Below are positions 21,159 to 64,000 of a stretch of 64,000 nucleotides of DNA, piece by piece. The stretch spans positions 173,628 through 237,627 of the forward strand of contig BDSI01000164.1 of assembly GCA_003117195.1 (NCBI GenBank), read 5' to 3'. Within the stretch, counting starts at the first letter, position 1. Each line of letters begins with the position of its first letter. Source of the stretch: Eudorina sp. 2006-703-Eu-15 (Eukaryota; Chlorophyta; Chlorophyceae; Chlamydomonadales; Volvocaceae). The position numbers and the translations under genes were made by a program. The notes under the pieces are model-generated. The model was not told where the DNA came from, did not search any database, and saw only the letters and a program-made list of their open reading frames with translations.

Positions 21159-32445
<11,287 letters not shown>

Positions 32446-33611: not shown

Positions 33612-35018
33612 TCACACCATCGTCGGCTCCACGACGGGCATGCCCTCGTTCCCGCCGCCCACGCCGCCACCGCCTCCCCCTTGCCCATCGCCCCCGTCCC
33701 CGCCCCCGTTCCCGTTGCCCTCCCCGCCGGCGTCCTCTCCGCCTCCTGGCCCCCCGTCACCCCTCCCACCCGCCGGCGCCCCCGCGCTCTGCATCCTGTC
33801 CAGCACCGCCATCGCCTCGCCGCGGATAATCTCCAGCCGCGCAATCACCGCCGCATTCACGCCCACCCCCTCGCTGCTTCCTCCTCCACCTCCTCCCCCA
33901 CTGCCGCTGCCGCCACCGCCACTGGCCGCCGCCACGTCCGCCTCCTGCAGCTGCACCACCATGGACTGCAGCGTCGCCAGGAACCGGCCCGGCCGCACCC
34001 AGTCCGGCTGGTTGGCGTGGAAGGCCGTCTGCGGCTTCTGCCGTGGCGCGGCGCCGTCCCAGTCCCGCTCGAACGCCGCCGCCAGCAGCCCCACGCGCCG
34101 CACCGGGTCGCCCACCGCCACCAGCTCCTTGAGGAAGGCCGCGCAGCGCTGCGGCACATTGGTGCGGACGGGCTCCTGCGGCACACCCGCGTCGTCCCCC
34201 GCCGTGAAGCGCGCCTCCTCGCGCAGCATCCGCAGCTCCTCGCGCACCAGCACCAGCCGCGCCAACAGCCGCCGGTCGGGCACCTCCGCCGCCTCCTCCA
34301 TCTCGTCGATGAACTTGGAGGCGGTGGCGGACAGGGTGTCCAGGTCGGTGCCGCCGGCGTCGCCGGCGGCTTCGCCGGCGGCGTCCGCCGCCGCGCGCAG
34401 CACCGCGACGCGGTCATCCTTGTCCGCGTGGCGCAGCGCCGAGTCCAGGACCTGGGCCGCGGGGGGCATCCGGGCGGACACCTGGCGGAGAACCTCCTGA
34501 CGGATGGCGGTGAGGAGGGACCCCAGTTGCGTGTCGCCGCGCTGGACGCAGACGTGCTGGAAGCCCTCGAGCGCCGTCAGGAAGTTCGCGTCCAGGAAGT
34601 CCAGCCGACGCGCGACCGCGTCGCGCACGGCCGAGTTCTGGGTCTGGTCGGAGGCGTCGTTCTGGAGGTAGGCGACGGCCTCCGAGACGAACAGCTCGCG
34701 CGTGACCTCGTTGACGATCTCGCCCAGCATCGACGCCGCGCGCTCGACATTGGCGGCGATCTCCGCGCGTTTCTGGGCCGGGTCGGGCTGCGCGGGTGGA
34801 GGAGGTGAGGATGGACTGGTGCCGTCGGAACCGTTCGCGGTAGCGCCGGCTGGGGCGTGGAGGCCAGGGCGGCGGCGAGGCGACGATGCGAGGAGCGATG
34901 ACGGCCGGCGGGCTGGCGGGATGGGCGGCACCGGTGCGGCGGCGCTTTGCCGGACCGGCGCCGATTTATCCTGACGCAGCTGGTGTTGGGATGGCGGATA
35001 CAGGATGCCCAAATGCAT
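33612..35018 (-). CDS. Conserved-looking intronless protein of unknown function, possibly plastid-targeted
   Basis: A single open frame of 468 residues. About the first 75 residues are Pro/Ser/Arg/Ala-rich with almost no acidic residues (PPARRPSSLLASSPRRRPGL), as in algal transit peptides. The ordered core follows: RAEIAANVERAASMLGEIVN, LFVSEAVAYLQNDASDQTQN, VARRLDFLDANFLTALEGFQ, LLTAIRQEVLRQVSARMPPA and DRRLLARLVLVREELRMLRE. It is strongly helical. A later segment (FHANQPDWVRPGRFLATLQS) is followed by a Gly-rich tail ending GMPVVEPTMV. The core reads like a conserved domain of photosynthetic eukaryotes, but I cannot name the family. ATG 35018 is the first methionine in frame; the true start could be upstream if there is an intron. 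Coding use is far more convincing than the overlapping plus-strand frames. Confidence 0.8.
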   Translation of the reverse strand: MHLGILYPPSQHQLRQDKSAPVRQSAAAPVPPIPPARRPSSLLASSPRRRPGLHAPAGATANGSDGTSPSSPPPPAQPDPAQKRAEIAANVERAASMLGEIVNEVTRELFVSEAVAYLQNDASDQTQNSAVRDAVARRLDFLDANFLTALEGFQHVCVQRGDTQLGSLLTAIRQEVLRQVSARMPPAAQVLDSALRHADKDDRVAVLRAAADAAGEAAGDAGGTDLDTLSATASKFIDEMEEAAEVPDRRLLARLVLVREELRMLREEARFTAGDDAGVPQEPVRTNVPQRCAAFLKELVAVGDPVRRVGLLAAAFERDWDGAAPRQKPQTAFHANQPDWVRPGRFLATLQSMVVQLQEADVAAASGGGGSGSGGGGGGGSSEGVGVNAAVIARLEIIRGEAMAVLDRMQSAGAPAGGRGDGGPGGGEDAGGEGNGNGGGDGGDGQGGGGGGVGGGNEGMPVVEPTMV

Positions 35019-38848: not shown

Positions 38849-39102
38849 CCGGGCGGGGTGGGCCATCGGATCACCGTCACAGGTCGGGACCCCTAGGTGG
38901 AGACGAGCACGGGTTTTGCCCGAGTCGGAGCTCGGAGGTGCCTTTGCCTGCCACGTGATCACACCGTACTGGATGGACGCGCTGTGGACTCGTGTTGAAC
39001 AATAGACGGAAACCATGTTGAATGAAGGGATGAATGAATGGATTAATGAACGGTTCAGCGGACCCCGAAAAGGGATCGACGGTGTATGCCAGCGTTTATC
39101 GT

Positions 39103-39107
39103 TGTAA
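39103..39107 (+). terminator. Candidate poly(A) signal TGTAA of the J-domain gene
   Basis: TGTAA is the usual volvocine poly(A) signal. This copy lies ~250 bp past the proposed stop at 38848. Confidence 0.5.
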
Positions 39108-40622
39108 CGGAAGGAAGGGCCACGGAGGTGCAGAGACTGTTGGCGTTCCGTTGGCAACATGCTAGTTGGGATAGGAGGGTAGACATCCGCATCCATCCCC
39201 ACTTTCCGGTCTGTTCCGGTAACCTCTTCCTTTGGGCGGCGTGAGATGCAACGCACGACACGACCAAATTGTCCCAAAGCGCGCTCCCTGAACGTGGATG
39301 TGCGAGTAATGGTACTAGTTGTGCTAGTTGTTTCCCGAACCAGGCGGCGCTGGTGCCGTCGACAACGATCGAACCTCAAGAAAGCGTCAGGAAAGCTTTA
39401 CATTACAATCATGCTGCACGTATCGATAGCGTAGAAAATTTGATGTTCGTGATCAATTACCGGTTGCTCTGCTGTGCGGCCGCAGGCATCGGTTGCGGTC
39501 ACAGAGTTCGGCTATGTATGAGAAACGGGGCTACAGTTACAAACAACATCGTATGCGTCCCGTGCACATATAAAACTTTGACCTTGCACCTATACACCTT
39601 AGGAGCGGACGGCTGGGTGACATAGGGCCCAACATTGTTGTACACGAAGCACAGGTTTTTCCACCTTCAAATTGCAGCTCGCATTGTCTTTCGAGTATAG
39701 ACGTAACGAGTTACTTGAACATCGGACCTGCAATTTGATCGGCTCGCCTGGTGCCTTTAGTTGTCCTAAAACCAAGCGCATTGCAACGGCCCCAGTCTGT
39801 GGAAGGCACCTCGGTCGCAGTAGGACTGCTTCTAGTAATTCTGAAGCACGTTCAGCTGCCGATATTGCGCCTTTTGTGTGCGACGTGGGCTTGACTTGCG
39901 TCGCGGGTTGTGACCTTAACCACTGCTAATGCCCTCACCGAGAGTCGATTTGTTGTTGCTCAAGCAATGTTTTCGGCTTAAGGTTTTCAACTCAATGGGT
40001 GAGTTCCGGCTGCTGGCGACAGGGATGGCGCTTGCGACACCGCAACGTGAGAGGAAGGTCATGGATTGCAGGCACTCTTACCAGGTATACAAGCGAAGCT
40101 TATAAAATGCGTCTATCAATACTAAATCGACAACGCAACGGTGCTTTACATGCCGGTACGTTTGTGACAGTTTGTGAACTTTGACATGTATGGGTAATAG
40201 TGAATCGCTTGTAGAATAGTGCCCTTGAGATAAGATTGCCTATGATTGACGAGCGGGGCATGGTTCTTTCTTACGAGCGTAACAACGGCAACCGTCCTCG
40301 CGGCAACATTCACTACTGTTAAACTGTCCTACAATTTTCTGCAGCTTTGCAATGTGTCAATTTGTCAGAAACAATTCCCAGACTTATGTCCAAGGAACTG
40401 CAGACTTGGTGAGCACACGCGGAACGATGTCGACGTCCGCACATCTTGGAATTGTAGTATATCACAGAATACATGACGAGATGAAGATCGCACGTGTATT
40501 GTATCTTTGCATCTCGCCTGCCGTAAAGCCTCTGTCCCAACTCCCTTTTTACACAGCAGCAAGCAGAGCAACGCCGGTATGACGCAAGGGCAATCCCCCT
40601 GAATCCCCAAGATCCTAAGCTC
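39108..40622. other. AT-richer region upstream of the satellite array
   Basis: Base use is unlike the flanks. Open frames are short on both strands with nothing recognisable. TATA-like sequences on the plus strand (CATATAAAAC at about 39567; CTTATAAAATG at about 40094) could serve transcription into the array, but their spacing to the ATG at 40623 is long. Confidence 0.4.
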
Positions 40623-43600
40623 ATGTCGCCTTCGCGTGTGCCTTCGCCGAAACGGGATCCCGTATCCGGAAGGCTGGGCTCGGTTTCATGTGGAGCTCAT
40701 CGGAAGGGGAGGTCCGCCAGGGGTGTGGGTAAGTCTCGACTCGATGGCACGTCCGTACTCACTTGTGTGCGCAGCTCCCTTTAGGGCATGAGCTGACGCA
40801 TCGCGTCTTTGCTTGCAGGCGGGCTCATCGGAAGGGGAGGTCCGCCAGCGGTGTGGGTAAGTCTCAACTCGATGGCATGTCCGTACCCACGTGTGTGCGC
40901 AGCTCCCTTTAGGGCATGAGCTGACGCATCGCGTCTTTGCTTGCAGGCGGGTCATCGGAAGGGGAGTTCCGCCAGCGGTGTGGGTAAGTCTCCACTCGAT
41001 GGCAAGTCCGTACCGCGTGTCTGCGCAGCTCCGTTCAGGGTATGAGCTGACGCATCGCGTCTTTGCTTGCAGGCGGGCTCATCGGAAGTGGAGGTCCGCC
41101 AGCGGTGTGGGTAAGTCTCGACTCGATGGCATGTCCGTACCCACGTGTGTGCGCAGCTCCCTTTAGGGCATGAGCTGACGCATCGCGTCTTTGCTTGCAG
41201 GCGGGCTCATCGGAAGGGGAGGTCCGCCAGCGGTGTGGGTAAGTCTCGACTCGATGGCACGTCCGTACCCACTTGTGTGCGCAGCTTCCTTCAGGGTATG
41301 AGCTGACTCATCGCGTCTTTGCTTGCAGGCGGGCTCATCGAAGTGGAGGTCCGCCAGCGGTGTGGGTAAGTCTCCGACTCGATGGCTAGTCCGAACCCCC
41401 GTGTGTGCGCAGCTCCCTTTAGGGCATGAGCTGACTCATCGCGTCTTTGCTTGCAGGCGGGCTCATCGGAAGGGGAGGTCCGCCAGCGGTGTGGGTAAGT
41501 CTCCGACTCGATGGCATGTCCGTAACCACGTGTGTGCGCAGCTCCCTTTAGGGCATGAGCTGACGCATCGCGTCGTTGCTTGCAGGCGGGCTCATCGGAA
41601 GGGGAGGTCCGCCAGCGGTGTGGGTACGTCTCAACTCGATGGCACGTCCGTACCCGCGTGTGTGCGCAGCTCCGTCAGGGTATGAGCTGACTCATCGCGT
41701 CTTTGCTTGCAGGCGGGCTCATCGGAAGGGGAGGTCCGCCAGCGGTGTGGGTAAGTCTCCGACTCGATGGCTAGTCCGTACCCACGTGTGTGCGCAGCTC
41801 CCTTTAGGGCATGAGCTGACTCATCGCGTCTTTGCTTGCAGGCGGGCTCATCGGAAGGGGAGGTCCGCCAGCGGTGTGGGTAAGTCTCCGACTCGATGGC
41901 ATGTCCGTAACCACGTGTGTGCGCAGCTCCCTTTAGGGCATGAGCTGACGCATCGCGTCGTTGCTTGCAGGCGGGCTCATCGGAAGGGGAGGTCCGCCAG
42001 CGGTGTGGGTACGTCTCAACTCGATGGCACGTCCGTACCCGCGTGTGTGCGCAGCTCCGTCAGGGTATGAGCTGACTCATCGCGTCTTTGCTTGCAGGCG
42101 GGCTCATCGGAAGGGGAGGTCCGCCAGCGGTGTGGGTAAGTCTCCGACTCGATGGCTAGTCCGAACCCCCGTGTGTGCGCAGCTCCCTTTAGGGCATGAG
42201 CTGACTCATCGCGTCTTTGCTTGCAGGCGGGCTCATCGGAAGGGGAGGTCCGCCAGCGGTGTGGGTACGTCTCAACTCGATGGCACGTCCGTACCCGCGT
42301 GTGTGCGCAGCTCCGTCAGGGTATGAGCTGACTCATCGCGTCTTTGCTTGCAGGCGGCTCATCGGAAGGGGAGGTCCGCCAGCGGTGTGGGTAAGTCTCC
42401 GACTCGATGGCTAGTCCGTACCCACGTGTGTGCGCAGCTCCCTTTAGGGCATGAGCTGACTCATCGCGTCTTTGCTTGCAGGCGGGCTCATCGGAAGGGG
42501 AGGTCCGCCAGCGGTGTGGGTAAGTCTCCGACTCGATGGCTAGTCCGTACCCACGTGTGTGCGCAGCTCCGTTCAGGGTATGAGCTGACTCATCGCGTCT
42601 TTGCTTGCAGGCGGGCTCATCGGAAGGGGAGGTCCGCCAGCGGTGTGGGGTAAGTCTCAACTCGATGGCACGTCCGTACCCGCGTGTGTGCGCAGCTTCC
42701 TTCAGGGTATGAGCTGACTCATCGCGTCTTTGCTTGCAGGCGGGCTCATCGGAAGGGGAGGTCCGCCAGCGGTGTGGGTAAGTCTCCGACTCGATGGCAA
42801 GTCCGTACCGCGTGTGTGCGCAGCTCCCTTTAGGGCATGAGCTGACGCATCGCGTCTTTGCTTGCAGGCGGGCTCATCGGAAAGGGAGGTCCGCCAGCGG
42901 TGTGGGTAAGTCTCAACTCGATGGCATGTCCGTACCCACGTGTGTGCGCAGCTCCCTTTAGGGCATGAGCTGACGCATCGCGTCTTTGCTTGCAGGCGGG
43001 CTCATCGGAAGGGAGGTCCGCCAGCGGTGTGGGTACGTCTCAACTCGATGGCACGTCCGTACCCGCGTGTGTGCGCAGCTCCGTCAGGGTATGAGCTGAC
43101 TCATCGCGTCTTTGCTTGCAGGCGGGCTCATCGGAAGGGGAGGTCCGCCAGCGGTGTGGGTAAGTCTCCGACTCGATGGCTAGTCCGAACCCCCGTGTGT
43201 GCGCAGCTCCTTTAGGGCATGAGCTGACTCATCGCGTCTTTGCTTGCAGGCGGGCTCATCGGAAGGGGAGGTCCGCCAGCGGTGTGGGTAAGTCTCCGAC
43301 TCGATGGCATGTCCGTAACCACGTGTGTGCGCAGCTCCCTTTAGGGCATGAGCTGACGCATCGCGTCGTTGCTTGCAGGCGGGCTCATCGGAAGGGGAGG
43401 TCCGCCAGCGGTGTGGGTACGTCTCAACTCGATGGCACGTCCGTACCCGCGTGTGTGCGCAGCTCCGTCAGGGTATGAGCTGACTCATCGCGTCTTTGCT
43501 TGCAGGCGGGCTCATCGGAAGGGGAGGTCCGCCAGCGGTGTGGGTAAGTCTCCGACTCGATGGCTAGTCCGTACCCACGTGTGTGCGCAGCTCCCTTTAG

Positions 43601-46600
43601 GGCATGAGCTGACTCATCGCGTCTTTGCTTGCAGGCGGGCTCATCGAAGGGGAGGTCCGCCAGCGGTGTGGGTAAGTCTCCGACTCGATGGCTAGTCCGT
43701 ACCCACGTGTGTGCGCAGCTCCGTTCAGGGTATGAGCTGACTCATCGCGTCTTTGCTTGCAGGCGGGCTCATCGGAAGGGGAGGTCCGCCAGCGGTGTGG
43801 GTAAGTCTCAACTCGATGGCACGTCCGTACCCGCGTGTGTGCGCAGCTTCCTTCAGGGTATGAGCTGACTCATCGCGTCTTTGCTTGCAGGCGGGCTCAT
43901 CGGAAGGGGAGGTCCGCCAGCGGTGTGGGTAAGTCTCCGACTCGATGGCAAGTCCGTACCCGCGTGTGTGCGCAGCTCCCTTTAGGGCATGAGCTGACGC
44001 ATCGCGTCTTTGCTTGCAGGCGGGCTCATCGGAAAGGGAGGTCCGCCAGCGGTGTGGGTAAGTCTCAACTCGATGGCATGTCCGTACCCACGTGTGTGCG
44101 CAGCTCCCTTTAGGGCATGAGCTGACGCATCGCGTCTTTGCTTGCAGGCGGGCTCATCGGAAGGGGAGGTCCGCCAGCGGTGTGGGTACGTCTCAACTCG
44201 ATGGCACGTCCGTACCGCGTGTGTGCGCAGCTCCGTTCAGGGTATGAGCTGACGCATCGCGTCTTTGCTTGCAGGCGGGCTCATCGGAAGGGGAGGTCAG
44301 CCAGGGGTGTGGGTAAGTCTCCGACTCGATGGCATGTCCGTACCCACGTGTGTGCGCAGCTCCCTTTAGGGCATGAGCTGACGCATCGCGTCGTTGCTTG
44401 CAGGCGGGCTCATCGGAAGGGGAGGTCCGCCAGCGGTGTGGGTACGTCTCAACTCGATGGCACGTCCGTACCCGCGTGTGTGCGCAGCTCCGTCAGGGTA
44501 TGAGCTGACTCATCGCGTCTTTGCTTGCAGGCGGGCTCATCGGAAGGGGAGGTCCGCCAGCGGTGTGGGTAAGTCTCCGACTCGATGGCTAGTCCGTACC
44601 CACGTGTGTGCGCAGCTCCCTTTAGGGCATGAGCTGACTCATCGCGTCTTTGCTTGCAGGCGGGCTCATCGGAAGGGAGGTCCGCCAGCGGTGTGGGTAA
44701 GTCTCCGACACGATGGCTAGTCCGTACCACGTGTGTGCGCAGCTCCGTTCAGGGTATGAGCTGACTCATCGCGTCTTTGCTTGCAGGCGGGCTCATCGGA
44801 AGGGAGGTCCGCCAGCGGTGTGGGTAAGTCTCAACTCGATGGCACGTCCGTACCCGCGTGTGTGCGCAGCTCCGTTCAGGGTATGAGCTGACTCATCGCG
44901 TCTTTGCTTGCAGGCGGGCTCATCGGAAGGGAGGTCCGCCAGCGGTGTGGGTAAGTCTCCGACTCGATGGCAAGTCCGTACCCGCGTGTGTGCGCAGCTC
45001 CCTTTAGGGCATGAGCTGACGCATCGCGTCTTTGCTTGCAGGCGGGCTCATCGGAAAGGGAGGTCCGCCAGCGGTGTGGGTAAGTCTCAACTCGATGGCA
45101 TGTCCGTACCCACGTGTGTGCGCAGCTCCCTTTAGGGCATGAGCTGACGCATCGCGTCTTTGCTTGCAGGCGGGCTCATCGGAAGGGGAGGTCGCCAGCG
45201 GTGTGGGTACGTCTCAACTCGATGGCACGTCCGTACCCGCGTGTGTGCGCAGCTCCGTTCAGGGTATGAGCTGACGCATCGCGTCTTTGCTTGCAGGCGG
45301 GCTCATCGGAAGAGGAGGTCCGCCAGCGGTGTGGGTAAGTCTCCGACTCGATGGCATGTCCGTACCCACGTGTGTGCGCAGCTCCCTTTAGGGCATGAGC
45401 TGACGCATCGCGTCTTTGCTTGCAGGCGGGCTCATCGGAAGGGGAGGTCCGCCAGCGGTGTGGGTAAGTCTCGACTCGATGGCACGTCCGTACCCGCGTG
45501 TGTGCGCAGCTCCCTTCAGGGTATGAGCTGACTCATCGCGTCTTTGCTTGCAGGCGGGCTCATCGGAAGGGGAGGTCAGCCAGGGGTGTGGGTAAGTCTC
45601 GACTCGATGGCAAGTCCGTACCCGCGTGTGTGCGCAGCTCCGTTCAGGGTATGAGCTGACGCATCGCGTCTTTGCTTGCAGGCGGGCTCATCGGAAGAGG
45701 AGGTCCGCCAGCGGTGTGGGTAAGTCTCCACTCGATGGCATGTCCGTACCCGCGTGTGTGCGCAGCTCCCTTCAGGGTATGAGCTGACTCATCGCGTCTT
45801 TGCTTGCAGGCGGGCTCATCGGAAGGGAGGTCGCCAGCGGTGTGGGTACGTCTCAACTCGATGGCACGTCCGTACCGCGTGTGTGCGCAGCTCCCTTCAG
45901 GGTATGAGCTGACTCATCGCGTCTTTGCTTGCAGGCGGGCTCATCGGAAGGGGAGGTCGCCAGCGGTGTGGGTAAGTCTCGACTCGATGGCACGTCCGTA
46001 CCCGCGTGTCTGCGCAGCTCCTTCAGGGTATGAGCTGACTCATCGCGTCTTTGCTTGCAGGCGGGCTCATCGGAAGGGGAGGTCAGCAGGGGTGTGGGTA
46101 AGTCTCGACTCGATGGCACGTCCGTACCCGCGTGTGTGCGCAGCTCCGTTCAGGGTATGAGCTGACTCATCGCGTCTTTGCTTGCAGGCGGCTCATCGGA
46201 AGGGGAGGTCAGCCAGGAGTGTGGGTAAGTCTCGACTCGATGGCAAGTCCGTACCCGCGTGTGTGCGCAGCTCCGTTCAGGGTATGAGCTGACGCATCGC
46301 GTCTTTGCTTGCAGGCGGGCTCATCGGAAGAGGAGGTCCGCCAGCGGTGTGGGTAAGTCTCCACTCGATGGCATGTCCGTACCCGCGTGTGTGCGCAGCT
46401 CCCTTCAGGGTATGAGCTGACTCATCGCGTCTTTGCTTGCAGGCGGGCTCATCGGAAGGGGAGGTCCGCCAGCGGTGTGGGTACGTCTCAACTCGATGGC
46501 ACGTCCGTACCGCGTGTGTGCGCAGCTCCCTTCAGGGTATGAGCTGACTCATCGCGTCTTTGCTTGCAGGCGGGCTCATCGGAAGGGGAGGTCAGCCAGG

Positions 46601-49600
46601 GGTGTGGGTAAGTCTCGACTCGATGGCACGTCCGTACCCGCGTGTGTGCGCAGCTCCGTTCAGGGTATGAGCTGACTCATCGCGTCTTTGCTTGCAGGCG
46701 GGCTCATCGGAAGGGGAGGTCAGCCAGGAGTGTGGGTAAGTCTCGACTCGATGGCAAGTCCGTACCCGCGTGTGTGCGCAGCTCCGTTCAGGGTATGAGC
46801 TGACGCATCGCGTCTTTGCTTGCAGGCGGGCTCATCGGAAGAGGAGGTCCGCCAGCGGTGTGGGTAAGTCTCCACTCGATGGCATGTCCGTACCCGCGTG
46901 TGTGCGCAGCTCCCTTCAGGGTATGAGCTGACTCATCGCGTCTTTGCTTGCAGGCGGCTCATCGGAAGGGGAGGTCCGCCAGCGGTGTGGGTAAGTCTCA
47001 CTCGATGGCACGTCTCGTCACGGGCCCGCGTGTGTGTCTCGACTCGATGGCACGTCCGTACCCGTGTGTGCGCAGCTCCCTTCAGGGTATGAGCTGACTC
47101 ATCGCGTCTTTGCTTGCAGGCGGGCTCATCGGAAAGGGAGGTCCGCCAGCGGTGTGGGTAGTCTCAACTCGATGGCACGTCCGTACCCGCGTGTGTGCGC
47201 AGCTCCGTTCAGGGTATGAGCTGACGCATCGCGTCTTTGCTTGCAGGCGGGCTCATCGGAAGGGAGGTCCGCCAGCGGTGTGGGTAAGTCTCCGACTCGA
47301 TGGCATGTCCGTACCGCGTGTGTGCGCAGCTCCCTTAGGGCATGAGCTGACGCATCGCGTCTTTGCTTGCAGGCGGGCTCATCGGAAGGGGAGGTCCGCC
47401 AGCGGTGTGGGTAAGTCTCGACTCGATGGCACGTCCGTACCCGCGTGTGTGCGCAGCTCCCTTCAGGGTATGAGCTGACTCATCGCGTCTTTGCTTGCAG
47501 GCGGGCTCATCGGAAGGGGAGGTCGCCAGCGGTGTGGGTAAGTCTCGACTCGATGGCACGTCCGTACCCGCGTGTGTGCGCAGCTCCGTTCAGGGTATGA
47601 GCTGACTCATCGCGTCTTTGCTTGCAGGCGGGCTCATCGGAAGGGAGGTCCGCCAGCGTGTGGGTAAGTCTCCACTCGATGGCAGTCCGTACCCGCGTGT
47701 GTGCGCAGCTCCCTTCAGGGTATGAGCTGACTCATCGCGTCTTTGCTTGCAGGCGGGCTCATCGGAAGGGGAGGTCCGCCAGCGGTGTGGGTAAGTCTCC
47801 ACTCGATGGCACGTCCGTACCCACGTGTGTGCGCAGCTCCGTTCAGGGTACGAGCTGACATCGCGTCTTTGCTTGCAGGCGGGCTCATCGGAAGGGGAGG
47901 TCGCCAGGGTGTGGGTAAGTCTCCACTCGATGGCAGTCCGTACCCGCGTGTCTGCGCAGCTTCCTTCAGGGTATGAGCTGACTCATCGCGTCTTTGCTTG
48001 CAGGCGGGCTCATCGGAAGGGGAGGTCGCCAGGGGTGTGGGTAAGTCTCGACTCGATGGCACGTCCGTACCCGTGTGTGCGCAGCTCCCTTCAGGGCATG
48101 AGCTGACGCATCGCGTCTTTGCTTGCAGGCGGGCTCATCGGAAGGGGAGGTCGCCAGGGTGGGGTAAGTCTCGACTCGATGGCAAGTCCGTACCCGCGTG
48201 TGTGCGCAGCTCCGTTCAGGGTATGAGCTGACTCATCGCGTCTTTGCTTGCAGGCGGGCTCATCGGAAGGGAGGTCGCCAGCGGTGTGGGTAAGTCTCCG
48301 ACTCGATGGCATGTCCGTACCCACGTGTGTGCGCAGCTCCCTTTAGGGCATGAGCTGGCATCGCGTCTTTGCTTGCAGGCGGCTCATCGGAAGGGGAGGT
48401 CCGCCAGCGCTCTCGATGGCAGTCCGTACAGGGGTACGAGCTGACTCATCGCGTCTTTGCTTGCAGGCGGGCTCATCGGAAGGGGAGGTCCGCCAGCGGT
48501 GTGGGTAAGTCTCACTCGATGGCAAGTCCGTACCGCGTGTGTGCGCAGCTCCGTTCAGGGTACGAGCTGACGCATCGCGTCTTTGCTTGCAGGCGGGCTC
48601 ATCGGAAGGGGAGGTCGCCAGCGGTGTGGGTAAGTCTCACTCGATGGCAAGTCCGTACCCGCGTGTGTGCGCAGCTCCCTTCAGGGTATCGAGCTGACTC
48701 ATCGCGTCTTTGCTTGCAGGCGGGCTCATCGGAAGGGGAGGTCCGCCAGCGGTGTGGGTAAGTCTCGATCGATGGCAAGTCCGGCGTGTGTGCGCAGCTC
48801 CCTTCAGGGTTCGAGCTGACTCATCGCGTCTTTGCTTGCAGGCGGGCTCATCGGAAGGGGAGGTCCGCCAGCGGTGTGGGTAAGTCTCGACTCGATGGCA
48901 CGTCCGTACCCGCGTGTGTGCGCAGCTCCTTCAGGGTGAGCTGACGCATCGCGTCTTTGCTTGCAGGCGGGCTCATCGGAAGGGGAGGTCCGCCAGCGGT
49001 GTGGGTAAGTCTCGACTCGATGGCACGTCCGTACCCGCGTGTGTGCGCAGCTCCGTTCAGGGTACGAGCTGACTCATCGCGTCTTTGCTTGCAGGCGGGC
49101 TCATCGGAAGGGGAGGTCCGCCAGCGGTGTGGGTAAGTCTCACTCGATGGCAAGTCCGTACCCGCGTGTGTGCGCAGCTCCTTCAGGGTACGAGCTGACT
49201 CATCGCGTCTTTGCTTGCAGGCGGGCTCATCGGAAGGGGAGGTCCGCCAGCGGTGTGGGTAAGTCTCAACTCGATGGCAAGTCCGTACCCGCGTGTGTGC
49301 GCAGCACCGTTCAGGGTACGAGCTGACGCATCGCGTCTTTGCTTGCAGGGGGCGAGCTGACGCATCGCGTCTTTGCTTGCAGGCGGGCTCATCGGAAGGG
49401 GAGGTCCGCCAGCGGTGTGGGTAAGTCTCAACTCGATGGAACGTCCGTACCCGCGTGTGTGCGCAGCTTCCTTCAGGGTTCGAGCTGACTCATCGCGTCT
49501 TTGCTTGCAGGCGGGCTCATCGGAAGGGGAGGTCCGCCAGCGGTGTGGGTAAGTCTCGACTCGATGGCAAGTCCGTACCCGCGTGTGTGCGCAGCTCCCT

Positions 49601-52600
49601 TCAGGGTTCGAGCTGACTCATCGCGTCTTTGCTTGCAGGCGGGCTCATCGGAAGGGGAGGTCCGCCAGCGGTGTGGGTAAGTCTCGACTCGATGGCAAGT
49701 CCGTACCCGCGTGTGTGCGCAGCTCCTTCAGGGTTCGAGCTGACTCATCGCGTCTTTGCTTGCAGGCGGGCTCATCGGAAGGGGAGGTCCGCCAGCGGTG
49801 TGGGTAAGTCTCAACTCGATGGAACGTCCGTACCCGCGTGTGTGCGCAGCTCCGTTCAGGGTACGAGCTGACTCATCGCGTCTTTGCTTGCAGGCGGGCT
49901 CATCGGAAGGGGAGGTCCGCCAGCGGTGTGGGTAAGTCTCGACTCGATGGCAAGTCCGTACCCGCGTGTGTGCGCAGCTCCTTCAGGGTTCGAGCTGACT
50001 CATCGAGTCTTTGCTTGCAGGCGGGCTCATCGGAAGGGGAGGTCGCCAGCGGTGTGGGTAAGTCTCAACTCGATGGCAAGTCGTACCCGCGTGTGTGCGC
50101 AGCTCCGTTCAGGGTCGAGCTGACGCATCGCGTCTTGCTTGCAGGCGGCTCATCGGAAGGGGAGGTCGCCAGCGGTGTGGTAAGTCTGGACTCGATGGCA
50201 AGTCCGTACCCGCGTGTGTGCGCAGCTCCGTTCAGGGTACGAGCTGACCATCGGTCTTGCTTGCAGGCGGGCTCATCGGAAGGGGAGGTCCGCCAGCGGT
50301 GTGGGTAAGTCTCGACCGATGCAAGTCCGTACCGCGTGTGTGCGCAGCTCCGTTCAGGGTCGAGCTGACGCATCGCGTCTTTGCTTGCAGGCGGGCTCAT
50401 CGGAAGGGGAGTCGCCAGCGTGTGGGTAAGTCCGACTCGATGGCAAGTCCGTACCGCGTGTGTGCGCAGCTTCCTTCAGGGTTCGAGCTGACTCATCGCG
50501 CTTTGCTTGCAGCGGCTCATCGAAGGAGTCGCCAGCGGTGGGTAAGTCTCGACTCGATGGCACGTCCGTACCCGCGTGTGTGCGCAGCTTCATTCAGGGT
50601 TCGAGCTGACTCATCGAGTCTTTGCTTGCAGCGCGGGCTCATCGGAAGGGAGGTCCGCCAGCGGTGTGGGTAAGTCGCGACTCGATGGCCAAGTCCGTTA
50701 CCCGCGCCTGTCGTGCGCAGCTTCCTTCAGGGCTTGTCGAGCTGACTCATCGCGCCTTTGCTTGCAGGCGGGCTCATCGGAAGGGGAGGTCCGCCAGCGG
50801 TGTGGGTAAGTCTCAACTCGATGGCAACGTCCGTACCCGCGTGTGTGCGCAGCTCCGTTCAGGGTACGAGCTGACTCATCGCAGTCTTTGCTTGCAGGCG
50901 GGCTCATCGGAAGGGGAGGTCCGCCAGCGTGTGGTAAGTCTCACTCGATGGCAAGTCCGTACCCGCGTGTGTGCGCAGCACCGTTCAGGGTACGAGCTGA
51001 CGCATCGCGTCTTTGCTTGCAGCGGGCTCATCGGAAGCGGAGGTCCGCCAGCGGTGTGGGTAAGTCGCGACTCGATGGCACGTCCGTACCCGCGTGTGTG
51101 CGCAGCACCGTTCAGGGTACGAGCTGACTCATCGCGTCTTTGCTTGCAGGCGGGCTCATCGGAAGGGGAGGTCCGCCAGCGGTGTGGTAAGTCTCCGACT
51201 CGATGGCACGTCCGTACCCGCGTGTGTGCGCAGCACCGTTCAGGGTACGAGCTGACTCATCGCGTCTTTGCTTGCAGGCGGCGCTCATCGGAAGGGGAGG
51301 TCGCAGCGGTGTGGGTAAGTCTCAACTCGATGGCAAGTCCGTACCCGCGTGTGTGCGCAGCTCCTTCAGGGTTACGAGCTGACTCATCGCGTCTTTGCTT
51401 GCAGGCGGGCTCATTCGGAAGGGGGAGGTCCGCCAGCGTGTGTGGGTAAGTCTCAACTCGATGGAACGTCCGTACCGCGTGTGTGCGCCAGCCCCTTCAG
51501 GGTTCGAGCTGACTCATCGCGTCTTTGCTTGCAGGCGGGCTCATCGGAAGGGGAGGTCCGCCAGCGGTGTGGTAAGTCTCCGACTCGATGGCACGTCCGT
51601 ACCCGCGTGTGTGCGCAGCTCCTTCAGGGTTCGAGCTGACTCATCGCGTCTTTGCTTGCAGGCGGGCTCATCGGAAGGGAGGTCCGCCAGCGGTGTGGGT
51701 AAGTCTCCGACTCGATGGCACGTCCGTACCCGCGTGTGTGCGCAGCACCGTTCAGGGTACGAGCTGACTCATCGCGTCTTTGCTTGCAGGCGGGCTCATC
51801 GGAAGGGGAGGTCCGCCAGCGGTGTGGGTAAGTCGCGACTCGATGGCACGTCCGTACCCGCGTGTGTGCGCAGCTTCCTTCAGGGTTCGAGCTGACTCAT
51901 CGCGTCTTTGCTTGCAGGCGGGCTCATCGGAAGGGGAGGTCCGCCAGCGGTGTGGGTAAGTCTCGACTCGATGGCACGTCCGTACCCGCGTGTGTGCGCA
52001 GCTCCCTTCAGGGTTCGAGCTGACTCATCGAGTCTTTGCTTGCAGGCGGGCTCATCGAAGGGGAGGTCCGCCAGCGGTGTGGGTAAGTCGCGACTCGATG
52101 GCAAGTCCGTACCGCGTGTGTGCGCAGCTTCCTTCAGGGTTCGAGCTGACTCATCGCGCCTTTGCTTGCAGGCGGGCTCATCGGAAGGGGAGGTCCGCCA
52201 GCGGTGTGGGTAAGTCTCGACTCGATGGCAAGTCCGTACCCGCGTGTGTGCGCAGCTCCCTTCAGGGTTCGAGCTGACTCATCGAGTCTTTGCTTGCAGG
52301 CGGGCTCATCGGAAGGGGAGGTCCGCCAGCGTGTGGGTAAGTCTCAACTCGATGGCACGTCCGTACCCGCGTGTGTGCGCAGCACCGTTCAGGGTACGAG
52401 CTGACTCATCGAGTCTTTGCTTGCAGGCGGGCTCATCGGAAGGGGAGGTCCGCCAGCGGTGTGGGTAAGTCTCGACTCGATGGCACGTCCGTACCCGCGT
52501 GTGTGCGCAGCTCCTTCAGGGTTCGAGCTGACTCATCACTTCTTTGCTTGCAGGCGGGCTCATCGGAAGGGGAGGTCCGCCAGCGGTGTGGGTAAGTCTC

Positions 52601-55600
52601 CGACTCGATGGCAAGTCCGTACCCGCGTGTGTGCGCAGCCCCCTTCAGGGTTCGAGCTGACTCATCGCGTCTTTGCTTGCAGGCGGGCTCATCGGAAGGG
52701 GAGGTCCGCCAGCGGTGTGGGTAAGTCTCAACTCGATGGCAAGTCCGTACCCGCGTGTGTGTGCAGCTCCATTCAGGGTACGAGCTGACTCATCGCGTCT
52801 TTGCTTGCAGGCGGGCTCTTCGGAAGGGGAGGTCCGCCAGCGGTGTGGGTAAGTCTCAACTCGATGGCAAGTCCGTACCCGCGTGTGTGCGCAGCTCCCT
52901 TAAGGGTGTGACCTGACGCATCGCGTCTTTGCTTGCAGGCGGGCTCATCGGAAGGGGAGGTCCGCCAGCGGTGTGGGTAAGTCTCAACTCGATGGCAAGT
53001 CCGTACCCGCGTGTGTGCGCAGCACCGTTCAGGGTACGAGCTGACGCATCGCGTCTTTGCTTGCAGGCGGGCTCAGCGGAAGGGGAGGTCCGCCAGCGGT
53101 GTGGGTAAGTCTCCGACTCGATGGCACGTCCGTACCCGCGTGTGTTCGCAGCACCGTTCAGGGTACGAGCTGACTCATCGCGTCTTTGCTTGCAGGCGGG
53201 CTCATCGGAAGGGGAGGTCCGCCAGCGGTGTGGGTAAGTCTCAACTCGATGGCAAGTCCGTACCCGCGTGTGTGTGCAGCTCCGTTCAGGGTACGAGCTG
53301 ACTCATCGCGTCTTTGCTTGCAGGCGGGCTCATCGGAAGGGAGGTCCGCAGCGGTGTGGGTAAGTCTCAACTCGATGGCAAGTCCGTACCCGCGTGTGTG
53401 CGCAGCTTCCTTCAGGGTTCGAGCTGACTCATCGCGTCTTTGCTTGCAGGCGGGCTCATCGGAAGGGGAGGTCCGCCAGCGGTGTGGGTAAGTCTCCGAC
53501 TCGATGGCACGTCCGTACCCGCGTGTGTGCGCAGCTTCCTTCAGGGTTCGAGCTGACTCATCGCGTCTTTGCTTGCAGGCGGCTCATCGGAAGGGGAGGT
53601 CCGCCAGCGGTGTGGGTAAGTCTCCGACTCGATGGCACGTCCGTACCCGCGTGTGTGCGCAGCACCGTTCAGGGTACGAGCTGACTCATCGCGTCTTTGC
53701 TTGCAGGCGGGCTCATCGGAAGGGGAGGTCCGCCAGCGGTGTGGGTAAGTCGCGACTCGATGGCACGTCCGTACCCGCGTGTGTGCGCAGCTTCCTTCAG
53801 GGTTCGAGCTGACTCATCGCGTCTTTGCTTGCAGGCGGGCTCATCGGAAGGGGAGTCCGCCAGCGGTGTGGGTAAGTCTCCGACTCGATGGCACGTCCGT
53901 ACCCGCGTGTGTGCGCAGCTTCCTTCAGGGTTCGAGCTGACTCATCGCGTCTTTGCTTGCAGGCGGGCTCATCGGAAGGGGAGGTCCGCCAGCGGTGTGG
54001 GTAAGTCTCCGACTCGATGGCACGTCCGTACCCGCGTGTGTGCGCAGCACCGTTCAGGGTACGAGCTGACTCATCGCGTCTTTGCTTGCAGCGGCTCATC
54101 GGAAGGGGAGGTCCGCCAGCGGTGTGGGTAAGTCGCGACTCGATGGCACGTCCGTACCCGCGTGTGTGCGCAGCTTCCTTCAGGGTTCGAGCTGACTCAT
54201 CGCGTCTTTGCTTGCAGGCGGGCTCATCGGAAGGGGAGGTCCGCCAGCGGTGTGGGTAAGTCTCGACTCGATGGCACGTCCGTACCCGCGTGTGTGCGCA
54301 GCTCCCTTCAGGGTTCGAGCTGACTCATCGAGTCTTTGCTTGCAGGCGGGCTCATCGGAAGGGGAGGTCCGCCAGCGGTGTGGGTAAGTCGCGACTCGAT
54401 GGCAAGTCCGTACCCGCGTGTGTGCGCAGCTTCCTTCAGGGTTCGAGCTGACTCATCGCGCCTTTGCTTGCAGGCGGGCTCATCGGAAGGGGAGGTCCGC
54501 CAGCGGTGTGGGTAAGTCTCGACTCGATGGCAAGTCCGTACCCGCGTGTGTGCGCAGCTCCCTTCAGGTTCGAGCTGACGCATCGAGTCTTTGCTTGCAG
54601 GCGGGCTCATCGGAAGGGGAGGTCCGCCAGCGGTGTGGGTAAGTCTCAACTCGATGGCACGTCCGTACCCGCGTGTGTGCGCAGCACCGTTCAGGGTACG
54701 AGCTGACTCATCGAGTCTTTGCTTGCAGGCGGGCTCATCGGAAGGGGAGGTCCGCCAGCGGTGTGGGTAAGTCTCGACTCGATGGCACGTCCGTACCCGC
54801 GTGTGTGCGCAGCTCCCTTCAGGGTTCGAGCTGACTCATCACTTCTTTGCTTGCAGGCGGGCTCATCGGAAGGGGAGGTCCGCCAGCGGTGTGGGTAAGT
54901 CTCCGACTCGATGGCAAGTCCGTACCCGCGTGTGTGCGCAGCCCCCTTCAGGGTTCGAGCTGACTCATCGCGTCTTTGCTTGCAGGCGGGCTCATCGGAA
55001 GGGGAGGTCGCCAGCGGTGTGGGTAAGTCTCAACTCGATGGCAAGTCCGTACCCGCGTGTGTGCGCAGCTCCCTTAAGGGTGTGACCTGACGCATCGCGT
55101 CTTTGCTTGCAGGCGGGCTCATCGGAAGGGGAGGTCCGCCAGCGGTGTGGGTAAGTCTCGACTCGATGGCACGTCCGTACCCGCGTGTGTGCGCAGCTCC
55201 CTTCAGGGTTCGAGCTGACTCATCGCGTCTTTGCTTGCAGGCGGGCTCATCGGAAGGGGAGGTCCGCCAGCGGTGTGGGTAAGTCTCCGACTCGATGGCA
55301 AGTCCGTACCCGCGTGTGTGCGCAGCTCCCTTAAGGGTTCGAGCTGACTCATCGCGTCTTTGCTTGCAGGCGGGCTCAGCGGAAGGGGAGGTCCGCCAGC
55401 GGTGTGGGTAAGTCTCAACTCGATGGCAAGTCCGTACCCGCGTGTGTGCGCAGCTTCCTTCAGGGTTCGAGCTGACGCATCGCGTCTTTGCTTGCAGGCG
55501 GGCTCATCGGAAGGGGAGGTCCGCCAGCGGTGTGGGTAAGTCTCGACTCGAAGGCAAGTCCGTACCCGCGTGTGTGCGCAGCTCCCTTAAGGGTGTGACC

Positions 55601-58600
55601 TGACGCATCGCGTCTTTGCTTGCAGGCGGGCTCATCGGAAGGGGAGGTGCGCCAGCGGTGTGGGTAAGTCTCGACTCGATGGCAAGTCCGTACCCGCGTG
55701 TGTGCGCAGCTCCCTTCAGGGTTCGAGCTGACTCATCGCGCCTTTGCTTGCAGGCGGGCTCATCGGAAGGGGAGGTCCGCCAGCGGTGTGGGTAAGTCTC
55801 AACTCGATGGCAAGTCCGTACCCGCGTGTGTGCGCAGCTCCCTTAAGGGTGTGACCTGACGCATCGCGTCTTTGCTTGCAGGCGGGCTCATCGGAAGGGG
55901 AGGTCCGCCAGCGGTGTGGGTAAGTCTCAACTCGATGGCAAGTCCGTACCCGCGTGTGTGTGCAGCACCGTTCAGGGTACGAGCTGACTCATCGCGTCTT
56001 TGCTTGCAGGCGGGCTCTTCGGAAGGGGAGGTCCGCCAGCGGTGTGGGTAAGTCGCGACTCGATGGCACGTCCGTACCCGCGTGTGTGCGCAGCTCCCTA
56101 AGGGTTCGAGCCGACTCATCGCGTCTTTGCTTGCAGGCGGGCTCATCGGAAGGGGAGGTCCGCCAGCGGTGTTGGTAAGTCTCGACTCGATGGCAAGTCC
56201 GTACCCGCGTGTGTGCGCAGCTTCCTTCAGGGTTCGAGCTGACTCATCGAGTCTTTGCTTGCAGGCGGGCTCATCGGAAGGGGAGGTCCGCCAGCGGTGT
56301 GGGTAAGTCTCGACTCGATGGCACGTCCGTACCCGCGTGTGTGCGCAGCTCCCTTCAGGGTTCGAGCTGACTCATCACTTCTTTGCTTGCAGGCGGCTCA
56401 TCGGAAGGGGAGGTCCGCCAGCGGTGTGGGTAAGTCTCCGACTCGATGGCAAGTCCGTACCCGCGTGTGTGCGCAGCCCCCTTCAGGGTTCGAGCTGACT
56501 CATCGCGTCTTTGCTTGCAGGCGGGCTCATCGGAAGGGGAGGTCCGCCAGCGGTGTGGGTAAGTCTCAACTCGATGGCAAGTCCGTACCCGCGTGTGTGC
56601 GCAGCTCCCTTAAGGGTGTGACCTGACGCATCGCGTCTTTGCTTGCAGGCGGGCTCATCGGAAGGGGAGGTCCGCCAGCGGTGTGGGTAAGTCTCGACTC
56701 GATGGCACGTCCGTACCCGCGTGTGTGCGCAGCTCCCTTCAGGGTTCGAGCTGACTCATCGCGTCTTTGCTTGCAGGCGGGCTCATCGGAAGGGGAGGTC
56801 CGCCAGCGGTGTGGGTAAGTCTCCGACACGATGGCAAGTCCGTACCCGCGTGTGTGCGCAGCTCCCTTAAGGGTTCGAGCTGACTCATCGCGTCTTTGCT
56901 TGCAGGCGGGCTCATCGGAAGGGGAGGTCCGCCAGCGGTGTGGGTAAGTCTCCGACTCGATGGCAAGTCCGTACCCGCGTGTGTGCGCAGCTCCCTTAAG
57001 GGTTCGAGCTGACTCATCGCGTCTTTGCTTGCAGGCGGGCTCATCGGAAGGGGAGGTCCGCCAGCGGTGTGGGTAAGTCTCAACTCGATGGCAAGTCCGT
57101 ACCCGCGTGTGTGCGCAGCTTCCTTCAGGGTTCGAGCTGACGCATCGCGTCTTTGCTTGCAGGCGGGCTCATCGGAAGGGGAGGTCCGCCAGCGGTGTGG
57201 GTAAGTCTCGACTCGAAGGCAAGTCCGTACCCGCGTGTGTGCGCAGCTCCCTTAAGGGTGTGACCTGACGCATCGCGTCTTTGCTTGCAGGCGGGCTCAT
57301 CGGAAGGGGAGGTCCGCCAGCGGTGTGGGTAAGTCTCAACTCGATGGCAAGTCCGTACCCGCGTGTGTGCGCAGCTCCCTTAAGGGTGTGACCTGACGCA
57401 TCGCGTCTTTGCTTGCAGGCGGGCTCATCGGAAGGGGAGGTCCGCCAGCGGTGTGGGTAAGTCTCAACTCGATGGCAAGTCCGTACCCGCGTGTGTGCGC
57501 AGCTCCCTTAAGGGTGTGACCTGACGCATCGCGTCTTTGCTTGCAGGCGGGCTCATCGGAAGGGGAGGTCCGCCAGCGGTGTGGGTAAGTCTCAACTCGA
57601 TGGCAAGTCCGTACCCGCGTGTGTGCGCATCACCGTTCAGGGTACGAGCTGACGCATCGCGTCTTTGCTTGCAGGCGGGCTCATCGGAAGGGGAGGTCCG
57701 CCAGCGGTGTGGGTAAGTCGCGACTCGATGGCACGTCCGTACCCGCGTGTGTGCGCAGCACCGTTCAGGGTACGAGCTGACTCATCGCGTCTTTGCTTGC
57801 AGGCGGGCTCAGCGGAAGGGGAGGTCCGCCAGCGGTGTGGGTAAGTCTCCGACTCGATGGCACGTCCGTACCCGCGTGTGTGCGCAGCACCGTTCAGGGT
57901 ACGAGCTGACTCATCGCGTCTTTGCTTGCAGGCGGGCTCATCGGAAGGGGAGGTCCGCCAGCGGTGTGGGTAAGTCTCAACTCGATGGCAAGTCCGTACC
58001 CGCGTGTGTGTGCAGCTCCGTTCAGGGTACGAGCTGACTCATCGCGTCTTTGCTTGCAGGCGGGCTCTTCGGAAGGGGAGGTCCGCCAGCGGTGTGGGTA
58101 AGTCGCGACTCGATGGCACGTCCGTACCCGCGTGTGTGCGCAGCTCCCTAAGGGTTCGAGCCGACTCATCGCGTCTTTGCTTGCAGGCGGGCTCATCGGA
58201 AGGGGAGGTCCGCCAGCGGTGTGGGTAAGTCGCGACTCGATGGCAAGTCCGTACCCGCGTGTGTGCGCAGCTCCCTTCAGGGTTCGAGCTGACGCATCGC
58301 GTCTTTGCTTGCAGGCGGGCTCATCGGAAGGGGAGGTCCGCCAGCGGTGTGGGTAAGTCGCGACTCGATGGCAAGTCCGTACCCGCGTGTGTGCGCAGCA
58401 CCGTTCAGGGCACGAGCCGACTCATCGCGTCTTTGCTTGCAGGCGGGCTCATCGGAAGGGGAGGTCCGCCAGCGGTGTGGGTAAGTCGCGACTCGATGGC
58501 AAGTCCGTACCCGCGTGTGTGCGCAGCTCCCTTCAGGGTTCGAGCTGACGCATCGCGTCTTTGCTTGCAGGCGGGCTCATCGGAAGGGGAGGTCCGCCAG

Positions 58601-59226
58601 CGGTGTGGGTAAGTCGCGACTCGATGGCAAGTCCGTACCCGCGTGTGTGCGCAGCACCGTTCAGGGCACGAGCCGACTCATCGCGTCTTTGCTTGCAGGC
58701 GGGCTCATCGGAAGGGGAGGTCCGCCAGCGGTGTGGGTAAGTCGCGACTCGATGGCAAGTCCGTACCCGCGTGTTTGCGCAGCTTCGTCACCGCCTCCGC
58801 CACCACCCTCTGTCACCGCCTCCGCCACCGCCTCCGCCACCGCCTTCGTCAGCAGCCTTCGTGAGCAGCCTTCGTCACCCCCTTCGCGACAGCCTCCGTC
58901 GCCGCCTCCGCCACCGCCTCCGCCACCACCGTCCGTCGCAGCCTCCGGCACCGCTTCTTGACGACGAAGACGACCTGCGTGTGTACCGAGTCATGGACTG
59001 CGACTCCTTCGAGTACCTTCGGGTGGCCGAACATTCTCCAAGCAGCAGCAATGGGCGTTCACGAGGATCCACAGAGGGGGTGGCCGTCAGCTGCTTCAGC
59101 TGCTTCAGCGACCTGAGAGGTGTTGGTTGCGCACCGCGGATTTCATGCGCGTCATGCGCGCGTGTGAGGCAAGTTGAGAGGTCAGTGGAAGTGTTACCCG
59201 CCTGTCAACCAGCAGTTAGCAGTTAG
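40623..59226 (+). CDS. Candidate gene made of ~140 tandem mini-exons (hypothetical)
   Basis: A possible transcript, not a proven gene. A leader frame starts at ATG 40623 (MSPSRVPSPKRDPVSGRLGS) and runs into the first array unit up to the donor at 40728/40729. Each later unit offers a 38-nt exon. Three successive exons would encode a 38-residue Arg/Gly/Ser-rich repeat with segments AGSSEGEVRQRC, RAHRKGRSASGV and GLIGRGGPPAVW. After the last unit donor (58737), a C-rich tract leads to acceptor CGTCCGTCGCAG and an exon from 58942 (PLLDDEDDLRVYRVMDCDSF, EYLRVAEHSPSSSNGR), open to a stop at 59226. The 46-nt alternative ending at 58782 looks too short for an intron. A TGTAA follows at 59347. Single-base indels in units change phase but not openness. 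Alternatively the array is plain satellite DNA with fortuitous splice-like signals, and the flanking exons are coincidental. Confidence 0.3.
40695..58782 (+). repeat. Giant ~128-bp tandem array with exon/intron-like units
   Basis: About 18.1 kb, close to 140 head-to-tail units. Each unit starts GCGGGCTCATCGGAAGGGGA and continues GGTCCGCCAGCGGTGTGG (38 nt together). Then come GTAAGTCTC, a variable middle (ACTCGATGGCA, GTCCGTACC, CGTGTGTGCGCAGC), GAGCTGACTCATCG and TCTTTGCTTGCAG. The 38-nt block and both splice-like ends vary least; most differences fall in the middle. Units at the left tend to read TTTAGGGCATGAGCTGACGC, those at the right TTCAGGGTTCGAGCTGACTC. From about 47.5 to 51.5 kb the units carry many small indels. 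Multi-unit blocks are duplicated, for example three-unit blocks near 41.6 and 42.0 kb and a two-unit block at 58.25-58.75 kb. A collapsed or expanded assembly is possible. Confidence 0.97.
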
Positions 59227-59351: not shown

Positions 59352-60230
59352 CATGCTGGGCGGAGGAGCGAGAGAGGGGAAGAGGGGGACGATGACGGGA
59401 GTGTCCTGAAGGGACCATTGCCGAATGCGGCAACTGTGATGTGATCGATTTCGGGGGAGAGGGGCGTAAGGGGCCTCTGTCCCCTCGCTCTCAACCAAGG
59501 GCGCGCGCCCGATCCCTGAGGTATGTGTGTGAATCGTTACATATCTGCCGGGCCAACGCTGGCCCGTTTGTGTGTGTGTGTTTGTGCGGGGAAGGGGGGA
59601 AGAGGGAAAACTGGTTGCAGGGAGGGGAGAATCCCCTGGAGGTGTGGGACAGGACCATCGCCGTCAGCCACCGACGGGAAACGACTGTGATGCCACAAGG
59701 CCCATATCTTACAGTTCTGGACTCCTCGAGCATCCTTCTCCGCCGGCCAGAACGGAACGCAGCACACAAATACAGAGGGAACAGAGCGCAACGGAACCCG
59801 CCACGATGCACGTCTTGGACGGAACAGGGGGTTGGGTGGGAACGGGAGGTGGGAAAGGGGAGAGGGAAGGAGGGCGAATAAACTTCCTATCCGCAGCTGC
59901 AACTACACCAGCTACATCCATCGTGATGCGGGGTGATGCGCCCACCCCAGCCGGAAGCACAGGGATCGATGCCACATTATCACCACCACACCACCGCCAA
60001 CTACACCACCTCGCACCAACAGCACCAAGAACATCCGCAGTGGCAGAAGCAGCTGCAGCAGCCGTCACCGGACACACACCCGTCGGTCGGTCGGTCGGTC
60101 GGTCGATCAGTCGGTCGGTCGATCAGTCGGTCTTGCTAAAGGGAGGCGGTCCGCCAACACACCAAGCCTTGGGAGGACAGGCCTGACCCCAGGTAGGGCT
60201 TCTTTCAGCCAGGCACCACATCCGCCATTG
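59352..60230. other. Intergenic region with repeat remnants
   Basis: Contains dispersed-repeat copy 2 (59455-59566), a TG-rich stretch at about 59568-59590 and (TCGG)n at 60086-60130. No gene seen. Confidence 0.45.
59455..59566 (+). repeat. Dispersed repeat, copy 2 (block X then block Y)
   Basis: Block X GGGGCGTAAGGGGCCTCTGT, CCCCTCGCTCTCAACC and GGGCGCGCGCCCGATCCC, then TATGTGTGTG and block Y AATCGTTACATATCTGCCGG. Identical over most of the length to 22811-22965 but with the blocks in swapped order. Confidence 0.8.
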
Positions 60231-63719: not shown

Positions 63720-63727
63720 CTGGGAGG

Positions 63728-64000
63728 GGAGGGGGGGAGGGGGAGGGGGGAAGGGGGAGGGGGAGGGGGGGGGGGGAGGGGGGGGGAGGGGAGGGGAGGG
63801 GGGGGAGGGGAGGGGGAGGGGGAGGGGGAGGGGAGGGGGAGGGGGAGGGGGAGGGGGAGGGGGAGGGGGAGGGGGAGGGGGAGGGGGAGGGGGAGGGGGA
63901 GGGGGAGGGGGAGGGGAGGGGGAGGGGAGGGGGAGGGGGAGGGGAGGGGGGGAGGGGGAGGGGGGGGGGAGGGGGAGGGGGAGGGGGGAAGGGGGAGGGG
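63728..64000 (+). repeat. G-rich GGGGGA/GGGGA tract reaching the window end
   Basis: Nearly pure G with single A every four to six bases. On the riboflavin gene strand it is a long CCCCCT pyrimidine tract ending at the acceptor of exon 63600-63719. It could form G-quadruplexes and is likely a weak point of the assembly. Confidence 0.95.

Follow-up and report, generated by a model that had tools for sequence, protein, structure and literature searches.

The window, a stretch of 64,000 nucleotides of Eudorina sp. 2006-703-Eu-15 at the end of contig C164 (BDSI01000164.1), contains a long head-to-tail array directly preceded by a dispersed repeat, here called leader B (Table 1). TRF reported the array with 90% matches and 3% indels, bearing out the ~18-kb satellite of ~128-bp units proposed in the initial annotation. 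A gene at 33615-35018 on the reverse strand has its best homologues in Pleodorina (67%), Gonium (67%), Volvox (63–66%) and Chlamydomonas (54–64%).

Table 1. Features of the window (strand + is the forward strand).
Feature	Position	Strand	Remarks
Leader B	39101..40690	+	Dispersed repeat adjoining the array on its 5' side
Tandem array	40695..58784	+	141.6 copies; 128-bp unit of ~38-nt exon-like and ~90-nt intron-like block
Example exon-like block	40819..40856	+	38 nt
Example intron-like block	40857..40946	+	Donor GTAAGT 40857-40862, CTGAC 40921-40925, CAG ending 40946
Rearranged unit	46954..47119	+	166 nt
Rearranged unit	48379..48466	+	88 nt, without GTAAGT
Partial unit	49349..49382	+	34 nt, branch point and acceptor only
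GC-rich minisatellite	58786..58954	.	12-bp unit, unrelated; adjoins the 3' edge of the array

A unit consists of the exon-like block GCGGGCTCATCGGAAGGGGAGGTCCGCCAGCGGTGTGG followed by an intron-like block, GTAAGT...GAGCTGACKCATCGCGTCTTTGCTTGCAG. When units were cut at a mid-intron anchor, the donor read GTAAGT in 127 of 140 window units and GTACGT in 10, and CTGAC, acceptor and donor occurred together in 135. In nearly every unit CTGAC lay ~20 nt before CAG, and ~38 nt separated the acceptor from the following donor, as the initial annotation had described (the CTGAC of the 40819 unit, for instance, stops 21 nt short of the intron end). Its description of the mini-exons as identical was wrong: the exact consensus was present in 78 of the 140 parsed blocks, and lengths ranged from 30 to 41 nt (38 nt in 100 blocks, 37 nt in 28, 36 nt in 8, and 41, 41, 35 and 30 nt in the remaining four).

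Under the general sequence rules for introns (donor, branch, acceptor), the units exhibit what a spliceosomal intron requires, namely a GT donor, a branch sequence and an AG acceptor at workable spacing. Chance occurrence was assessed with dinucleotide-preserving shuffles of the circular unit (60000 trials), a one-unit estimate being appropriate for copies that share a single ancestral unit. CTGAC with an AG-free pyrimidine-rich stretch and CAGG arose in 133 of the 60000 shuffles, this acceptor module together with a GTRAGT one intron length away in 5, and the module with the strict donor GGTAAGT in 0; the reverse complement of the unit had no such module. The units are therefore shaped as intron and exon far beyond chance.

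A protein gene with ~140 mini-exons was also considered. In silico joining of 139 exon-like blocks gave 5225 nt free of stops in all three frames. These open frames say little about coding, because the 38-mer holds no stop triplet, and the frame was not kept, since 29 of the 139 blocks measured 37 nt and 7 measured 36 nt. Exons were also less conserved than splice sites (see below), and no predicted protein matched at E ≤ 0.001 among 7996 candidates scored. Protein coding by the array is unlikely, and we give such a gene almost no credence. Two RNA candidates were rejected as well. The exon consensus folds into a hairpin at -11.9 kcal/mol, but some variants from C249, C37 and C80 fold otherwise, which speaks against a structured RNA, and a spliced-leader RNA gene array was ruled out because the units also carry an acceptor. 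Rfam gave no match in the window at the gathering score and none at E ≤ 1 in pieces L068, L075, L050 and L067.

At least three units were rearranged (Table 1; this listing covers the array up to about 49800), and the array ended 3' inside an intron, with the donor present and the acceptor absent. TRF scored a 384-bp period at 26865 vs 24271 for the 128-bp period; unit similarity in the window was nearly flat with lag (0.9426 at lag 3, 0.938 at lag 1), so that any such effect was weak here. Similarity peaked at lags 17, 32 and 15 in the C32 array and at lag 18 in the C249 array, the pattern left by satellite growth through multi-unit exchange.

The unit was not confined to the window. A 27-mer spanning the acceptor-exon junction, allowed up to 3 mismatches, had 2616 matches (1743 + 873) in the genome searched (181 Mb, 3033 contigs) and a reversed-pattern control had 0. 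Head-to-tail units longer than 10 bp, as in a satellite, were present at several loci. Exact donor-side matches marked other long arrays, one covering C37:8789-23417 and another starting at C37:774291 and reaching at least 785493, and short copies comprised one unit in C44 and about 1.5 in C8. About three diverged, older units were found in C88, where two of three acceptors were intact; part of the C88 sequence is 70% similar to leader B. For comparison between units we read 317 units in 12 sets: C164 (140 units), C32 (45), C249 (56), C12 (11 + 23, two pieces 0.7 kb apart that are probably one array), C37 (11 + 12, two arrays), C72 (11), C74 (5) and one unit each from C50, C80 and C8, with no whole unit contributed by C44. 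A 99.7% copy of the window leader and array start lies on another contig (C290:36937-40726, L047); this locus may be a duplicate or a second haplotype, and was left out of the unit counts.

The array stood directly behind one of two leaders at 10 of the 13 places read, always with the leader 5' on the spliceable strand. Leader A was directly upstream in C249, C80, C50 and C32, and leader B in the window, C290, C37 (two places), C72 and C44. Neither leader was matched in the ≤1.5 kb fetched upstream in C74 and C8, and the sequence read at C12 comprised the array and its 3' edge. A second leader-A copy in C80 (259841-261354, reverse strand) had 128-bp unit matches adjacent to it, as judged by coordinates only. 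No reading frame longer than 126 aa lay wholly inside leader A or B. Judged by eye, the leader contains a site that could plausibly serve as the first donor at C249, C80, C50 and one C37 array (C37a). The window copy of leader B looks 5'-truncated, because the two C37 copies and the C72 copy have further common sequence upstream of the point where it begins. The pieces of leaders A and B that were compared had no BLAST match to each other, and their alignment suggests only a short common block near the array. Leader A had at least 57 matches in the genome (40 of 70 candidates scored), of which 18 small secondary fragments were dropped, leaving 39 places for analysis.

Related satellites occurred behind diverged leaders. 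Eight downstream pieces were read behind leaders 74–82% similar to leader A. At C195:80600-86880 (L068 and L075), behind a leader 74–75% similar, there was a separate satellite with a ~1073-bp unit, itself composed of pieces resembling introns and exons and present in five copies in the 6.3 kb read; each unit had three (once four) CTGAC...CAG ends with GTAGGT or GTAAGT donors, and pieces of the same kind were present in C181. C11 and C231 (L071, L072) had long GGTCG-type repeats in the position occupied elsewhere by the 128-bp array, C31 and C132 had GGGACTATGCG-type repeats, and CGCTGACACC or CGATGACACC stretches followed further on in C11, C132 and C31. The pieces read from C165 and C74 (368720) had no array.

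For leader A alone, the putative C-terminus of a tyrosine recombinase was encoded 572–1035 bp upstream on the same strand, at 11 of the 39 loci (three in C85, four in C195, and one each in C1359, C74, C165 and C469). The fragment contains HSLR, HGRW and a Tyr nine residues after the Trp, and was judged by the residue spacing of Cre-like enzymes; by profile and homology it was weak (Pfam Phage_integrase E 0.035, below the cut-off; Cre E 0.74). No recombinase match was found upstream of the five leader-A loci known to bear the 128-bp array (C249, C80 at two places, C50 and C32), nor on any leader-B contig, the window included. We withhold the recombinase link from leader B, which seems to share no more than the short block with leader A. 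PAT-like DIRS elements, which carry a tyrosine recombinase, are present in all species examined for repeats in PMC8226300. The putative recombinase end upstream of leader A may belong to an element of this kind or to a Crypton-like one; of the 150 RVT_1 (reverse transcriptase) candidates scored out of 1052, none lay beside these loci, and the leader-B contigs had no recombinase match. In C85, the recombinase C-terminal frame recurs three times at ~22.5-kb spacing in the same orientation (L080, C85:317570-317752).

A recombinase gene end near these leader copies would suit a reading in which the exon core is a tyrosine recombinase site and a recombinase of the neighbouring type adds units like cassettes. 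The core consists of inverted arms around ATCGGAAG, the arms are perfect over 8–9 bp in C195, and the motif GCTCATCGGAAGG is common to the 128-bp and 1073-bp satellites. However, only the 3' edge in C32, of the edges seen, lies at the core, the core itself varies (ATCGAAAG, ATCCAAAT), and in the 128-bp unit the arms are imperfect and several variants fold otherwise. We consider this origin very unlikely.

The array edges also bear on whether the array consists of introners, mobile elements that create introns and here would have inserted in tandem. Units end GT...AG, the 5' edge coincides with the donor in C74 and lies close to it in C8, and two of the nine 3' edges seen fall on an acceptor or immediately behind one (C80, C44). 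Against this, at most one edge per locus seen falls at a splice site: four 3' edges are inside the intron (window, C50, C8, C74) and three in the exon (C249, C32, C12). Each unit moreover includes a ~38-nt exon, and no copy was shown to sit within a host gene, which leaves an introner array improbable.

Across the 317 units read, GTAAGT was present in 294, GT in 314, CTGAC in 310 and CAG in 311, with branch point, acceptor and donor together in 307; the hexamer TGGCAC was kept in 168, and is a hard control because its last bases are polymorphic within arrays. Pooled over the eight sets of at least 10 units (including the two pieces of what is probably one C12 array), relative variation was lower at the splice positions (0.32, cf. 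0.85 in the exon and 1.32 in the other intron positions) than under any other of the 129 rotations of the mask, and a value this low came up in 1 of 50000 random sets. CpGs fall at none of the splice positions, and a non-CpG comparison agreed. Permutation of positions set by set gave p < 0.05 in C164, C249, C37a and C37b, and no significant deficit at splice positions in the other four of eight (C32, C12a, C12b, C72). Between the 12 set consensuses, 1 of 24 splice positions varied vs 46 of 105 others; at the eight loci that were recovered by searches other than the acceptor pattern, alone or in addition to it, the figures were 0 of 24 vs 42 of 105 (Fisher 4.6e-5).

Whole-genome exact counts pointed the other way. 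The full 35-mer occurred 464 times, rising to 662 with the donor hexamer masked (70% intact) and to 588 with the control hexamer TGGCAC masked (79% intact), so that the donor hexamer was not better kept than the control. Among the first 100 places listed, all in C8 and C37, the donor was intact in 93 and the control in 88; since donors do better there, other loci must hold many altered donors. An ATAAGT donor appeared in 2 of the 59 strings shown. Units of the same array do not count as independent observations, so fixation of another donor in a few arrays could account for the genome-wide gap, and the low variation in the arrays read may partly reflect recent shared ancestry. Maintenance of the splice signals is supported in the pooled arrays and opposed by the genome-wide counts. 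A genome search for the predicted exon-exon junction gave no match at 0 or 1 mismatch; at 2–3 mismatches there were 538, and the 100 listed all came from the acceptor ends of normal units. Spliced copies, exact or nearly so, have therefore not been written back into the assembly, an absence that is compatible with splicing.

These data divide over the proposal, made in the initial annotation, that the units are spliceable mini-exons and mini-introns. In its favour are the shape of the unit, the low variation at splice positions in the units read and the plausible first donors in four leaders; against it are the genome-wide donor counts, which do not exceed the control, the lack of a junction match at 0–1 mismatch and the loss of one in three acceptors in the old C88 copy. 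The same evidence bears on an inert satellite, founded by a real intron and exon but silent or unspliced, in which the signals stay intact through youth and homogenisation by unequal exchange. The genome-wide donor and control counts, the absence of processed copies at 0–1 mismatch, the variable array ends, the multi-unit duplications and the decay in C88 all fit such a satellite. Homogenisation alone, however, does not predict that donor, branch and acceptor should jointly be the least variable parts, both in pooled arrays and between loci. We regard an inert satellite as a serious possibility, albeit one we would not bet on.

The explanation we prefer is that one exon-intron module, just downstream of a conserved and apparently non-coding leader, was amplified in tandem into a satellite. 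Origin of the array from such a module is likely. Arrays would lengthen by unequal exchange of multi-unit blocks, and copies would spread with their leaders and in a few places without them. A transcript would begin in or before the leader, and the units would be spliced out singly, leaving ~38-nt blocks, or together; growth of the array would then cost the transcript little, because the units are spliced out, and the splice signals would persist as the remaining unit sequence diverges. We assign this full account, i.e. a module amplified behind a leader, spliced and with its signals retained, a probability of about 0.5. Taken by itself, splicing of the array in cells, as predicted from its sequence, falls somewhat short of an even chance. 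More speculative, and in our judgement rather unlikely, is a general form of the idea in which a satellite's own donor, branch point and acceptor would let transcribed arrays be spliced away at any length, the signals would be the constrained part, and the 128-bp and 1073-bp satellites would use the same trick. Transcripts would then have a period of 38 as opposed to 128 in DNA, and exon circles might form. If the arrays are transcribed and spliced, a satellite could expand unnoticed within a transcription unit, its growth would be linked to intron origin, and the locus would offer a natural experiment on spliceosomal pairing among ~140 donors and acceptors that are nearly alike. Otherwise, they would still be a clear case of an exon-intron module made into a satellite beside a dispersed repeat that is partly linked to mobile elements.

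Several known systems share parts of this arrangement. The Chlamydomonas element TOC1 reportedly has an array of 76-bp repeats borne on a mobile element, and Helitrons likewise carry satellite or minisatellite arrays. As in these, a tandem array of variable length adjoins conserved, non-coding sequence belonging to a dispersed element; unlike them, nearly every unit here has the full set of spliceosomal signals, and the array reaches 18 kb. In tandem exon duplication, an exon and its flanking intron ends are duplicated head to tail, as they are here, but the window has ~140 copies, mostly of 38 nt (not a multiple of 3) and apparently non-coding. Introners (PMC9860276) are also repeats that bring their own splice sites, whereas the present units form head-to-tail arrays with a small exon each and were not shown to be precise introns of host genes; the words 'tandem', 'satellite', 'Chlamydomonas' and 'Volvox' are absent from the main text of that paper. 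We found no published description of such an array in the open-licence literature, which is a weak negative.

Other repeats were observed in the window. At 59450-59564, a 72-bp stretch was identical at no fewer than 38 other places (40 of 1072 candidates scored), and many copies are accompanied by an adjacent 44-bp partner piece; this is a young, high-copy short repeat. GGGGGA/CCCCCT-type repeats occur at 63722-64000, the end of C164, and at C249:1-300, the start of that contig, and both contig ends are likely assembly breaks. A perfect (GT)96 run lies at 22618-22810.
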